Position numbers and translations under genes: made by a program. Source: Levilactobacillus acidifarinae DSM 19394 = JCM 15949 (GTDB lineage: Bacteria; Bacillota; Bacilli; Lactobacillales; Lactobacillaceae). From it: a DNA stretch of 64,000 nt. Of this stretch, positions 29,086 through 47,142 are shown in pieces; position 1 is the stretch's first letter; the number at the start of each line of letters is the position of its first letter. The notes beneath the pieces were generated by a model. It had not been told where the DNA came from and searched no databases. It was given only the letters and a program-made list of their open reading frames with translations. The DNA is taken from assembly GCF_001434835.1 (NCBI RefSeq), contig NZ_AZDV01000028.1:362363-426362 (forward strand), given 5' to 3'.

Positions 29086-29122
29086 GAAAAAAGGTCACCA
29101 TCCGAAGATGGTGACCTTTTTG
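29086..29122. terminator. Strong terminator of the cold-shock gene
   Basis: Perfect 15-bp arms AAAAAGGTCACCATC and GATGGTGACCTTTTT around CGAA, with T-runs on both strands. Confidence 0.9.
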
Positions 29123-29140
29123 GCTATAGGCTAATGTAAA

Positions 29141-29344
29141 TTAGTCAACAACCGTAACGTTAGCAGCTTGTGGGCCACGATCGCCTTGTTCTACGTCAAG
29201 GGATACGTGTTGGCCTTCTTCAAGAGTCTTGAAGCCTTCACTGTTGATAGCAGAGAAGTGAACGAAAACGTCTGAGCCGTTTTCAAGAGTGATGAAGCCG
29301 TAACCTTTATCAGCGTTGAACCATTTAACAGTACCTTGTTCCAT
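29141..29344 (-). CDS. Cold-shock protein (CspA family)
   Basis: This 67-residue RNA chaperone has a single cold-shock domain with RNP1 KGYGFITL and RNP2 VFVHFSAI. The rest ([36 protein letters not shown]) is standard. The ATG at 29344 follows GGAGG. A 120-nt untranslated leader lies between it and the promoter at 29467-29495, as in temperature-regulated csp genes. Codon use is A/T-richer than most neighbours, fitting a highly expressed gene. Which paralogue (CspA, P or C) it is cannot be told. Confidence 0.95.
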
Positions 29345-29466
29345 AAGAATGAAACCTCCGTGCGCATAGCGCAATAATATTTGCATTTGAAAGCTGGGGT
29401 AAAAAGGAGCCATTCTTAAAGAACGTCGAGCCTTTAAAACTTCCGAACCATAAATACATTAACCAT

Positions 29467-42972: not shown

Positions 42973-43776
42973 CTACCATGCTGGAACGGACAACCCGTGG
43001 TAGTACTTCTTGATTAACTTCTTAGTTGATTCGCTTTGGTAAGCCTTAACGATCTTCTTGTAAGTCTTGTTGTTCTTATCCGCCTTGTTCGCCGCAATGA
43101 TGTTGATGTACGGGATTGAGGCCTTGTTAAGCTTTTCCTTGAAGATGCATTCGTTGTTCGGTAACTTCGCTTCAGCCGCAAATTCGTTGTTGACCACGGC
43201 ACCGGCCGCATCCGATAAGGAACGTGGCGTTTGCGCGGCATCAACTGGCGTAATCTTTAACTTTAATTTGTTTTCCGTAATGTTCTTAGGTGTTGGTAAC
43301 TCAACCTTGTTGTCCACCTTGATCAAACCAGCGGATTGCAGTAAGTGTAAAGCCCGCCCTTCGTTGGTCGAATCGTTAGGAATGGTGATTTGGTCACCTT
43401 TCTTGATGGCCGACACGTTCTTAACCTTCTTGGAATATAACCGTAGTGGTGCGCGGACGGTCTTCCCGATGGAAACGATGTTGGTCTTGTGGGCCTTGTT
43501 CCACGCTTGCATGAAGAACGTGTGTTGGAACGAGTTAATATCGATTTCGTGGTTGGTCAGCGCCGCGTTGGGTTGATTGTAATCCGTAAAGGTCACTAAC
43601 TTGATGTTGACGCCTTCCTTGGCCAACTTGGTCTTAATCGGCTTCCAAATCTTTTCGTCGGATCCCATGATTCCGACCTTGACCGTCTTGTTTGAGCTGG
43701 ATTTCCCACAGCCAGCAACGATTAACAACGGAATCAATAATAGAAATAACCAGGCAAATCGTTTAAATTGCTTCAT
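42973..43776 (-). CDS. metQ: Methionine-binding lipoprotein
   Basis: This 267-residue NlpA/MetQ-family binding protein has a lipoprotein signal ending LLIVAGC. The mature part contains VKVGIMGSDEKIWKPIKTKLAKEGVNIKLVTFTDYNQPNAALTNHEIDINSFQHTFFMQAW, IPNDSTNEGRALHLLQSAGLIKV and VVNNEFA, all MetQ hallmarks. Codon use is more biased than in its neighbours, which fits high expression. The ATG at 43776 is preceded by AAGGGGA. It is the first gene after a T-box leader, so the operon should respond to uncharged tRNA-Met. Confidence 0.93.
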   Translation of the reverse strand: MKQFKRFAWLFLLLIPLLIVAGCGKSSSNKTVKVGIMGSDEKIWKPIKTKLAKEGVNIKLVTFTDYNQPNAALTNHEIDINSFQHTFFMQAWNKAHKTNIVSIGKTVRAPLRLYSKKVKNVSAIKKGDQITIPNDSTNEGRALHLLQSAGLIKVDNKVELPTPKNITENKLKLKITPVDAAQTPRSLSDAAGAVVNNEFAAEAKLPNNECIFKEKLNKASIPYINIIAANKADKNNKTYKKIVKAYQSESTKKLIKKYYHGLSVPAW

Positions 43777-43799
43777 TAATAAAATCCCCTTTTTCCTCA

Positions 43800-44138
43800 A
43801 AATTTATAATAGCTAATTGCCAAGTGATTGAACCCGGACCAAAAGAAAAAGTCCGCTCCTAAGTTAATAGAAACGAACTTGTCGTGGTACCATTCTAGTT
43901 TAAGTCAGCGTTTGACGGCCGGCTCCTCATTAACACTCACCGCTAAAGCGGGAAGTGCGTGCACGGTAATGAGTGCCAGTCATCGTCACCTCATTCTAAC
44001 GAACTCAGCAACGCCAATTCATTTCAGGCCATCTTCACCCCGGCGTGGGCTACCCGCTTGCAGCAAATCGCGAGCTCTCTATCAAACCATTACCGGTGGC
44101 TACTCTCCTGATCACATTGTTTTCAATCACTTAATTTA
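43800..44138 (-). ncRNA. T-box leader of metQNI (probable Met specifier)
   Basis: The 340-nt untranslated leader contains GAATGGTACCACG (43883-43895), which matches the conserved T-box sequence (AGGGTGGTACCGCG type). A terminator follows: stem AGUUCGU/GCGGACU (43850-43879) then UUUUU. Upstream lies a long stem I region beginning AGAGAGCTCGCG. An AAATGAA segment there could be the specifier loop presenting ATG. T-box control of met transport by uncharged tRNA-Met is known in lactobacilli. The exact specifier was not folded, so methionine is inferred from the operon and the ATG. Confidence 0.8.
43845..43879 (-). terminator. T-box terminator hairpin
   Basis: AGTTCGT and GCGGACT pair with two G-U contacts and precede TTTTT. 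The antiterminator would use the GGTACCAC element just upstream. Confidence 0.7.
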
Positions 44139-45194: not shown

Positions 45195-46835
45195 CTACTT
45201 AATATAGGCGTACTTGTAACTCCACTGCGTGCCGGCTGTGTTGTGAATCACACCCTTGACCGTCGACCGTTGAAGGTAAGCGTAATCTGCCTGGTACAGT
45301 GGCGTAAAGCTCTGTTCCTTGTTCAACAGCTTAGCGCCCTGCACCAGATCCTGCCAGCGCTTTTCCGGCGTAGCAGCATCCTGGTTTTGAGCCTTGGCAA
45401 TCAACTTGTCATAGGTCTTGTTCGACCACTTACCGTAGTTCAAGGAGTTCGAGCTCAACGGAATCTGCATGAAGGAGATTGGGTCGTTGAAGTCCGCACC
45501 CCAGTGTGACAGGTAGATATCGAAGTCCCCGGATTGCGAGCGTTGCTGGGCAACCTGCGCCGGTACGTTTTGGATGTTCAACTTAAAGCCAGGTAGCGTC
45601 TTTTCCAGTTGGCCCTTCAGGTACTGGGTGACCGTGCTGGCCATTGGATCATCATTTCCAGCCAGAACGCTCAGTTTAACTTCCTTGGTTCCCAATTGTT
45701 TCAGCGCTTGTTGCCACTTTTGCTTAGCTAACGTGGGATTGTAAGTCGTGGTATTCTTAACGGCTTGTTGCGTCGCAAAATCTTTGCCGGTCTTGGGATC
45801 CTTGGCCAGGCCGCTGGTAACAAACCCGGTCGGCGTTACGGAACCGTCGCCTAAGACCTTCTTGGTCAACTGCTGACGGTTGATGGATAAGGCGATTGCC
45901 TGCCGTAAGTTTCGGTTACTCAACGCCGCTTGCTTCGTGGCGTCGGTATCCTTAAAGTTATACTTCAGGTGAATCATGATGGAATACGGGTATTCCTTGA
46001 ACTCGGAATCGTTCTTGTAATTTTTGACCTGTTCGTTGGTTAATTGCGCCAAGTCCAGTTTCTTGTTTTGGTAAAGCCCTAAGCCCGTTTGCTGGTTCGT
46101 CACCACTTGGTAGTTAATCTTGTGCAGCTTGACCACCCCGTGATCCCAGTAATCGTTGTTCTTGACGAATGACCAGGTATTGCTGGTTCCTTTCCAGTTT
46201 TCAATCTTAAACGGCCCACTGTAGACCATGTACTGTGACTTCGTAGCGTATTTCTTCCCGTACTGCTTGACCACCTTTTCGTTTTGCGGGGCAAACAACG
46301 GGTAGGCCATCAGGATCTTAAAGTAGGCCATGGGCTTAGTCAGCTGCACCACCACGGTCTGCTGGTTCTTGGCGTGAATCCCAATCTTATCGGGGCTCAT
46401 CTTGCCGGCAATGATCTGATCGCCGTTCTTAATACCGGAGAACAAGTACGTGTAGGTCGACTTGGTGGCCGGCGTCAACGTCCGGCGCCAGGAGTACACG
46501 AAGTCCTTGGCGGTAATCTTGTCACCGTTACTCCACTTAGCGTTGTCCCGAATATGGAAGGTCCAGGTCTTTTGATCCTTGGACTCCTGTACCTTGTCGG
46601 CTAACCCGGGCGCCACCTTGCCGTCCTTGCCTAACCGATAGAAGCTTTCAAACACGTTCCCGGTCTGTCCGTAGCCGGTGGCCTTCGCTAAATCAATCGT
46701 ATCCAATTGCGCGGTTGCCGGTAAATTCAAGTCTTGCTTGGGTTGAGCGCTGGTCGTGGATTTCCCACAAGCGGCGAGCCCCACTCCTAACGCAACCACT
46801 GCGGTGACTAATCCTAAACTCGTCCATCTGTTCAT
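45195..46835 (-). CDS. Peptide-binding lipoprotein (OppA family), copy 2
   Basis: This 546-residue extracytoplasmic binding protein has signal VVALGVGLAAC with the lipidated Cys at about 23. The SBP_bac_5 core is visible: LPATAQLDTIDLAKATGYGQTGNVFESFYRL, WTFHIRDNAKWSNGDKITAKDFVYSWRRTLTP, RNLRQAIALSINRQQL and FTPLYQADYAYLQ. It is an orphan gene with no permease or ATPase beside it. The start at 46835 follows AAGGGAG. Its message begins about 270 nt upstream with a cysteine-rich leader peptide and a strong terminator, so expression probably rises when cysteine is short. The ligand may be cystine-containing or other peptides; this is inferred from the leader, not from the protein. Confidence 0.88.
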   Translation of the reverse strand: MNRWTSLGLVTAVVALGVGLAACGKSTTSAQPKQDLNLPATAQLDTIDLAKATGYGQTGNVFESFYRLGKDGKVAPGLADKVQESKDQKTWTFHIRDNAKWSNGDKITAKDFVYSWRRTLTPATKSTYTYLFSGIKNGDQIIAGKMSPDKIGIHAKNQQTVVVQLTKPMAYFKILMAYPLFAPQNEKVVKQYGKKYATKSQYMVYSGPFKIENWKGTSNTWSFVKNNDYWDHGVVKLHKINYQVVTNQQTGLGLYQNKKLDLAQLTNEQVKNYKNDSEFKEYPYSIMIHLKYNFKDTDATKQAALSNRNLRQAIALSINRQQLTKKVLGDGSVTPTGFVTSGLAKDPKTGKDFATQQAVKNTTTYNPTLAKQKWQQALKQLGTKEVKLSVLAGNDDPMASTVTQYLKGQLEKTLPGFKLNIQNVPAQVAQQRSQSGDFDIYLSHWGADFNDPISFMQIPLSSNSLNYGKWSNKTYDKLIAKAQNQDAATPEKRWQDLVQGAKLLNKEQSFTPLYQADYAYLQRSTVKGVIHNTAGTQWSYKYAYIK

Positions 46836-46885
46836 TCCTGACACTCTCCCTTTCGTTCCTCAATTTGGCGTGCAACCACTGACGA

Positions 46886-46930
46886 CAAAAAACGGGTGTT
46901 TCCCCACGTTCATCGTGGAGAAACACCCGT
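46886..46930 (-). terminator. Leader terminator before oppA copy 2
   Basis: A 17-bp stem (ACGGGTGTTTCTCCACG with CGTGGGGAAACACCCGT, one mismatch-type pair) with loop ATGAA and TTTTTT lies inside the leader, 50 nt before the gene. A competing pairing uses GAGTGTTTC (46944-46936) and ACGAC (46949-46945) against the 3' arm and GTCGT (46886-46882). Confidence 0.88.
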
Positions 46931-46958
46931 TGACAGAAACACTCGTCGTTATGTAAGG

Positions 46959-47063
46959 CTACGAGTTTGCCGGGGACCCCGAATGAACGCAACGCAAAAG
47001 ACACATGTTACATTCGCAACATGCGGCAACAAACCCTTGAATTTGGGTAGCGTTGGTTAACAT
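46959..47063 (-). CDS. Cysteine-rich leader peptide (34 aa), attenuator
   Basis: A strong AAAGGAGGGG lies at the right distance before an ATG at 47063. The peptide runs MLTNATQIQGFVAA then CCECNMCLLRC then VHSGSPANS and stop. Five cysteine codons (TGT and TGC) fall within 11 codons (residues 15 to 25), at a place where a starved ribosome would stall ahead of the terminator at 46886-46930. No signal peptide or known Cys-rich fold is present, and the ORF ends just before the competing RNA arms. I read it as a ribosome-mediated attenuation leader for the downstream oppA. A small metal-binding peptide is the alternative. Confidence 0.75.
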   Translation of the reverse strand: MLTNATQIQGFVAACCECNMCLLRCVHSGSPANS

Positions 47064-47113
47064 TCGTGAGTCCCCTCCTTTAAAATTTATGTTCGTCTCG
47101 ATTGCACTTCCTA

Positions 47114-47142
47114 AAAGTAACCCACTTCTCCTGGCTTGTCAA
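47114..47142 (-). promoter_or_regulatory. Promoter of the leader-oppA transcript
   Basis: TTGACA, 17 bp, TACTTT on the minus strand, about 45 nt before the leader peptide ATG. Confidence 0.75.

Follow-up and report, generated by a model that had tools for sequence, protein, structure and literature searches.

A putative cysteine leader-peptide attenuator that uses its own ribosome-binding site as first strand upstream of an oppA-type gene in Levilactobacillus

The window analysed here, a 64,000-nucleotide stretch of the Levilactobacillus acidifarinae DSM 19394 genome (contig NZ_AZDV01000028.1, positions 362,363 to 426,362), carries on its minus strand a promoter, a strong Shine–Dalgarno (SD) sequence, a short cysteine-rich ORF and a terminator, flanked by genes for a GH3 glycosidase and an OppA-type protein. 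The −35 (TTGACA, 47142-47137) and −10 (TACTTT, 47119-47114) elements are separated by 17 nt, and TTGACA is found at the equivalent position upstream of the leader in 35/35 genomes of the genus. The leader SD, AAAGGAGGGG (47081-47072; this and the following features lie on the minus strand), precedes a 34-codon ORF, MLTNATQIQGFVAACCECNMCLLRCVHSGSPANS (47063-46959), with a cluster of Cys codons at residues 15, 16, 18, 21 and 25 (46989-47021). The terminator (46931-46891), of 18 pairs and −31.6 kcal/mol with T6 at 46892-46887, is followed by the putative regulated gene (45195-46835, start ATG at 46835), encoding an OppA-type lipoprotein (SBP_bac_5) whose closest solved structure by sequence is 5kzt. 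An initial annotation had described this same arrangement, from the promoter and its 17-nt spacing to the five Cys codons, the T6 terminator and oppA, and all of it is present in the letters. The leader fold has a z-score of −6.77, with 0/200 shuffles as good, and the Cys-codon stretch is itself predicted, by folding and by RNAalifold, to form a hairpin (GCATGTTGC...GTAACATGTG, 47002-47024) whose bases are nearly frozen in the genus-wide alignment. ORFs of 12–60 residues with at least four Cys in 11 residues occur once on the minus strand of the window (the leader) and four times on the plus strand; Cys richness of the ORF alone is no proof of a regulatory leader.

The oppA leader has no covariance-model match to the T-box (RF00230), and a search of Rfam 15 yielded nothing there at gathering score, only sub-threshold matches. 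In the same genome, the T-box model gives 33 matches with E ≤ 0.001, of which 7 exceed the cut-off. Elsewhere in the window, a T-box match of 73.7 bits, below the gathering score, is located at 43866-44124 (minus) upstream of an NlpA-family lipoprotein gene (42973-43800), and a cspA thermoregulator match (RF01766, 95.3 bits) at 29088-29444 (minus).

Conservation was assessed in 58 genomes including that of the window, 35 of them from its genus, Levilactobacillus, and 23 from other families. An oppA orthologue (78–100% identity) is found in 35/35 genus genomes, each time downstream of an SD-led, in-frame short ORF with predicted translation that contains CCxCN and 4–5 Cys, the first at codon 14–18. 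The leader before oppA is not a chance feature. A covariance model running from SD to stop (R1) matches all 35 genus genomes and gives no match below E 0.04 in the 23 genomes of other families, nor does it reveal a convincing second copy of the leader in the own genome (next match E 0.8). The degenerate-codon pattern A-C-C-x-C-N recovered 23 of the 25 genus genomes drawn plus 11 genomes of other genera, and a stricter pattern gave 31 matches in the genome collection, 30 of which are Levilactobacillus or Lactobacillus sp. records, with L. brevis ATCC 14869 among the genomes that have the leader; the remaining one, in a Bacteroidetes MAG (L079), looks like a chance palindrome and was rejected. 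Inside the ORF, alignment gaps are exclusively of 3 nt before the Cys codons and of 1–2 nt after them, so that the reading frame seems important only up to the Cys codons; beyond these the frame shifts while the bases remain similar across the genus leaders. An intrinsic terminator lies between leader and oppA in 34/35 genus genomes and was not found in G019. The G019 leader (L029), from which the terminator stem is missing while the leader ORF and the P0 helix described below are kept, represents a natural test of unattenuated oppA.

Applied to 26/35 leaders (clade A and G019 omitted), with the ends cut at two P0 strands spotted by eye, RNAalifold predicts a stem that pairs the leader SD and start codon with the 3' part of the ORF, along with the Cys-codon hairpin, a post-stop hairpin, the terminator and P0. 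The competing structures can be described by four strands, which were defined only once the sequences had been seen. Strand 1, comprising the leader SD and start codon (47061-47080), is predicted from permutations and folding to pair with strand 2, the 3' part of the ORF (46962-46985), which may instead pair with strand 3, the terminator 5' arm and loop (46907-46931), to give an antiterminator; strand 3 alternatively pairs with strand 4, the terminator 3' arm (46891-46908). Co-evolution was assessed by swapping partners among 11 lineage groups, drawn by eye and sharing ancestry, over 20000 permutations. Native helix 1:2 is more stable than swapped pairings (−19.0 versus −14.8 kcal/mol; 0/20000 permutations as good), as is helix 2:3 (−16.5 versus −14.3 kcal/mol; 1/20000, with 39/20000 for its loop side and 12/20000 for its stem side), and helix 3:4 is likewise matched by 0/20000. 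The corresponding values for control pairings are 13681/20000 for uORF codons 2–13 with strand 3, 1098/20000 for the same codons with strand 2 and 18012/20000 for strand 1 with strand 4. A further candidate, 0:4, between the post-Cys stretch and the terminator 3' arm, appeared good by eye and was discarded, showing no co-evolution (10348/20000).

Pair counts were made on fewer sequences. For the loop side of 2:3 (30 sequences, 9 distinct), 91.7% is paired (0/500 shuffles), and cells changed on both sides (5/500) and covariation (5/500) both exceed the control. Neither the number of further pair types (104/500) nor that of pairs changed on both sides (150/500) does so. For 1:2 (29/35 sequences), covariation stands out (0/500), pairs changed on both sides (112/500) and further pair types (500/500) are not above control, and one pair is broken in half of the distinct rows. 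G000, G005, G013 and G021 were omitted from both counts because the anchor motif is missing, which leaves the window's own clade in neither; G022 and G024 were also omitted for 1:2, and G019 has no strand 3. Compensatory changes are seen in the terminator-loop bases of 2:3 and in 1:2, in clades other than the window's own. These comparisons support the prediction of three mutually exclusive helices, 1:2, 2:3 and 3:4, making up a four-strand attenuator.

In the window's own clade (G000, G005 and G013), native 2:3 has no advantage over swapped pairings (−13.2 versus −13.7), and in the window alone (G000) 40/100 strand-3 shuffles equal the native helix. Support for 2:3 is comparative; the window and its own small clade do not rise above chance. 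By single-sequence energy, 2:3 is prominent in 21/74 leaders overall and in 14/34 within the genus. The antiterminator proposed in the initial annotation is a different one: the letters on which it was built exist (GTGTTTC, 46942-46936, with GAAACAC, 46902-46896; ACGAC with GTCGT), but that particular pairing is not conserved, since even the sister genome G005 no longer allows GTGTTTC/GAAACAC, and GTCGT lies downstream of the T-run and so cannot act before the termination decision. The conserved competitors are instead 46985-46962 with 46931-46907 and 46985-46962 with 47080-47061, the latter having been missed. The broader claims fare better, since the in-frame ORF with its 4–5 Cys is kept in all relatives within the genus, compensatory changes are found in the conserved helices 1:2 and 2:3, and the co-evolution of exclusive helices argues for the suggested ribosome-mediated terminator/antiterminator switch at cysteine codons. 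A helix formed by 46943-46949 and 46881-46885 (minus; ACGACGA/TCGTC) brackets the terminator in the wider clade of the window; it corresponds to CTAGACGA/TCGTCTAG in L008 and L009, and its place is taken by a local hairpin in the other clade.

A further helix, P0, joins GTGCAATC (47100-47107), at the 5' end that the promoter predicts for the transcript, to GGTTGCAC (46870-46877), between the terminator and the oppA SD. Its 3' strand lies past the terminator, so P0 is possible only in readthrough RNA. In pair counts on 32/35 leaders, covariation is matched in 1/500 and pairs changed on both sides in 48/500 controls. In G004, G022 and G024, which have a long insert at that place and an altered 5' side, no 3' side could be recognised. 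One lineage (L006, L007, L008 and L009) has ∼100–150 additional bases between terminator and oppA, with P0 lost or weak. As to its role, one guess is protection of the 5' end of the full-length mRNA and another is a split protein-binding site.

Very probably, the leader controls oppA by ribosome-mediated transcription attenuation in response to cysteine supply; this assessment rests on comparative sequence analysis, from which we infer the response to cysteine. With ample Cys-tRNA, the ribosome would reach the stop codon at or inside strand 2 and cover that strand, and 3:4 would terminate transcription. When Cys-tRNA is scarce, the ribosome would stall at the Cys codons, leaving strand 2 free to form 2:3, and oppA would be read. 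If the leader is not translated, 1:2 would form and mask the leader SD, again permitting 3:4. The terminator has roughly twice the stability of 2:3, and this large difference requires that the choice fall during transcription, by folding order. Ribosome-masked folding of 34 leaders, with transcripts ended before strand 4 and at least 6 expected pairs counted, agrees with part of this scheme. With no ribosome, 1:2 forms in 32/34 leaders and 2:3 in 5/34; a ribosome stalled at the first Cys codon leaves the outcome similar (1:2 in 33/34, 2:3 in 5/34), so that a lone stalled ribosome as a sufficient cause of 2:3 is unsupported by folding. When a second ribosome is placed on the start codon, 2:3 forms in 34/34, and with the ribosome at the stop codon in 1/34. 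In this model the parts yield the three classical attenuator states, provided that strand 1 is occupied during the stall of the first ribosome. The simplest cause would be a following ribosome queued on the leader start codon, and steric hindrance by the stalled ribosome may be an alternative. As the ribosome-binding site of the leader itself serves as strand 1, antitermination would, on the two-ribosome reading, need both a stalled and a queued ribosome.

Similar leaders are found in other genera. Over 397 genomes of the family, R1 matched 25/25 of the genus and 26 others; 27 R1 places in those 26 genomes comprise 24 Cys-rich leaders (16 in g55, 4 in g22, 3 in g23 and 1 in g39) and 3 false ones, L139, L149 and L158, which were dropped for want of a Cys leader, as were the order-level places L160 and L161. 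The g55 (CCPCC...NM[AV]ICV) and g22 (CCxxCC...NNM[VI]IC) leaders precede OppA-like genes, whose products, compared for one protein per genus, are 53% (g55) and 55% (g22) identical. In g55 the stem between SD and ORF shows, by eye, the compensatory combinations GAGACG/CGTCTC, GTGACG/CGTCAC and GGGAT/ATCCC. One g23 leader lies before amino-acid ABC permease genes, whose general permease domain alone exceeds its cut-off, and two lie before a symporter, the one searched being 54.7% identical to a protein annotated as an L-cystine transporter. In g39, the leader is followed by a MetA-like gene, which scores below its cut-off, and by CysK (429.9 bits, cut-off 350.95). Plasmid-borne OppA homologues were inspected in 2 of 64 records matched, and both have a Cys leader (CCCC in Lactobacillus amylolyticus, CCC..CC in Ligilactobacillus salivarius). 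Of 12 leaders taken from plasmids or from other genera, none has an Rfam match at gathering score.

CysK is carried by 86 genomes of the family, and the upstream DNA of 60 was examined. Short ORFs with a Cys cluster number 27 in the sense and 1 in the antisense orientation, some of the 27 being probably spurious, and a Cys leader followed by a terminator is found in 19/60 regions as against 1/60 antisense; one of the 19 (L220) has no terminator under a stricter test. All 8 g21 regions examined carry a Cys leader (..SCCCVVM.. or alike). On relaxed inspection of regions without a match, more short leaders with a final CC or CCC were seen in g23 and g50; in many regions, those of g29 among them, no such leader with a terminator was seen. 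A second leader type, with CC or CCC immediately before the stop codon, is observed upstream of cysK operons of other genera (L162-L168, L171, L185, L186, L191-L193 and L195).

Pairing of the SD and start codon with downstream sequence, relative to codon-shuffled ORFs, is exceptional (0/30 shuffles as high) in 39/76 leaders: 21/35 in Levilactobacillus, 8/16 in g55, 4/4 in g22, 6/8 in g21 and 0/13 in others. The single g23 ABC leader shows no excess of such pairing (12.8 versus 13.1 pairs). Judged by single-sequence energy, a clear 2:3 is present outside the genus in 3/4 g23 cysK leaders, in g54 and in L. salivarius, and is rare in g55 (1/16), g21 (1/8) and g22 (0/4). In other genera, Cys-rich leaders, the majority of which have a stem predicted to mask the SD, are thus located upstream of OppA homologues, an L-cystine symporter, an amino-acid ABC operon and MetA-like/cysK operons.

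A search of the own genome gave no CysK or CysE over the cut-off, and CysK (E ≤ 1e-100) was detected in 1/25 Levilactobacillus genomes tested. The sole carrier (G022; L200) has no CC-bearing leader in the 2.6 kb upstream. From the absence of these genes, uptake is probably the main source of cysteine. This gene content, and the fact that comparable leaders elsewhere precede genes for cystine transporters and cysK, favour the proposal in the initial annotation that this OppA would be part of cysteine supply. By analogy with the genes that similar leaders precede, and from its own leader, OppA would import cysteine-bearing peptides.

The presence of CCxCN in all 35 genus leaders could also reflect an arrest peptide, in which the nascent Cys-rich chain halts the ribosome on a metal or thiol redox signal and not on a lack of Cys-tRNA; clustered cysteines could bind metal. 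However, the hairpin that spans the Cys codons would also account for the frozen bases, between genera it is mainly Cys richness that persists (CCCVV, CCPCC, CCCC), and the genes downstream of similar leaders serve cysteine supply, and we consider an arrest peptide improbable. Slightly less probable again is a general sensor of translation stress, in which any stall on the leader, caused by an antibiotic or by shortage of other amino acids, would induce oppA: the 1:2/2:3/3:4 logic would respond to any suitably placed stall, but 4–5 Cys codons are kept in 35/35 leaders while the frame after them varies. A constitutive terminator beside an unrelated gene for a small Cys-rich protein, with no switch, would fit the very stable terminator but is highly improbable, given that the exclusive helices co-evolve and that the post-Cys frame, unlike that of a functional protein, is not conserved.

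The cysteine attenuator favoured here has both known and new aspects. Leader-peptide attenuation is a classical mechanism in which strand 1 is the regulatory-codon stretch, and for lactobacilli, T-boxes are the commonly described means of controlling genes for amino acids in general. Cysteine leaders are already known from Actinobacteria and Rhodobacterales, and leader-peptide attenuators for other amino acids from Bacillota, such as Rli60 upstream of ilv-leu in Listeria (PMC5864092) and the his leader of bacilli (PMC2965389). The oppA leader resembles trp/his/ilv-type attenuators in having an ORF with regulatory codons, a terminator and an antiterminator, with translation deciding between them, and differs in its Cys codons and in having a strand 1 that consists of the leader SD and start codon. 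In mycobacteria and other Actinobacteria, cysteine-responsive, Cys-rich short ORFs are described before cysteine genes (PMC1262725, PMC9094748); PMC1262725 reports no conserved terminator hairpin there, and the title of Canestrari 2020 (cited in PMC9094748) terms these ORFs leaderless. The oppA leader shares with them the Cys-rich short ORF, whereas its ORF is SD-led and followed by an intrinsic terminator and a predicted antiterminator, and both the genes and the phylum are others. Compared by description, it is also like the uORFC-8-2 motif before cysS in Rhodobacterales, which has tandem Cys codons at ∼14–15, stems and a terminal U-run (PMC8632094), with Cys codons at a similar place; that motif belongs to cysS in Alphaproteobacteria, the lactobacillus leaders to OppA and cysteine-supply genes. 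Sulfur amino-acid genes of lactobacilli are described as T-box controlled, and in L. paracasei a Cys T-box precedes an amino-acid ABC operon (PMC6004538). Both that T-box and, by prediction, the oppA leader are cis elements for cysteine uptake, but a T-box reads tRNA directly, unlike a leader ORF, and the oppA locus has no T-box match. No cysteine leader attenuator in lactobacilli is reported in the titles and abstracts of the literature matches listed. What appears to be new is a predicted attenuator in lactobacilli that is specific for cysteine and recruits the SD of its own leader as strand 1; this use of the SD provides a testable two-ribosome model.

It is conceivable, though we hold it as distinctly tentative, that these leaders belong to a large and unrecorded Lactobacillaceae family of cysteine attenuators with two-ribosome readout that replace T-boxes or repressors in the control of cysteine supply. 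In L. paracasei, cysK2-ctl1-cysE2 is described as having high 5'-UTR read coverage that is unexplained, with no T-box (PMC6004538), and cysteine leaders may bear on this observation. If true, such a multi-genus family would imply a common cysteine regulon for food and gut lactobacilli and would help to pick out the transporters and binding proteins through which they obtain cysteine.
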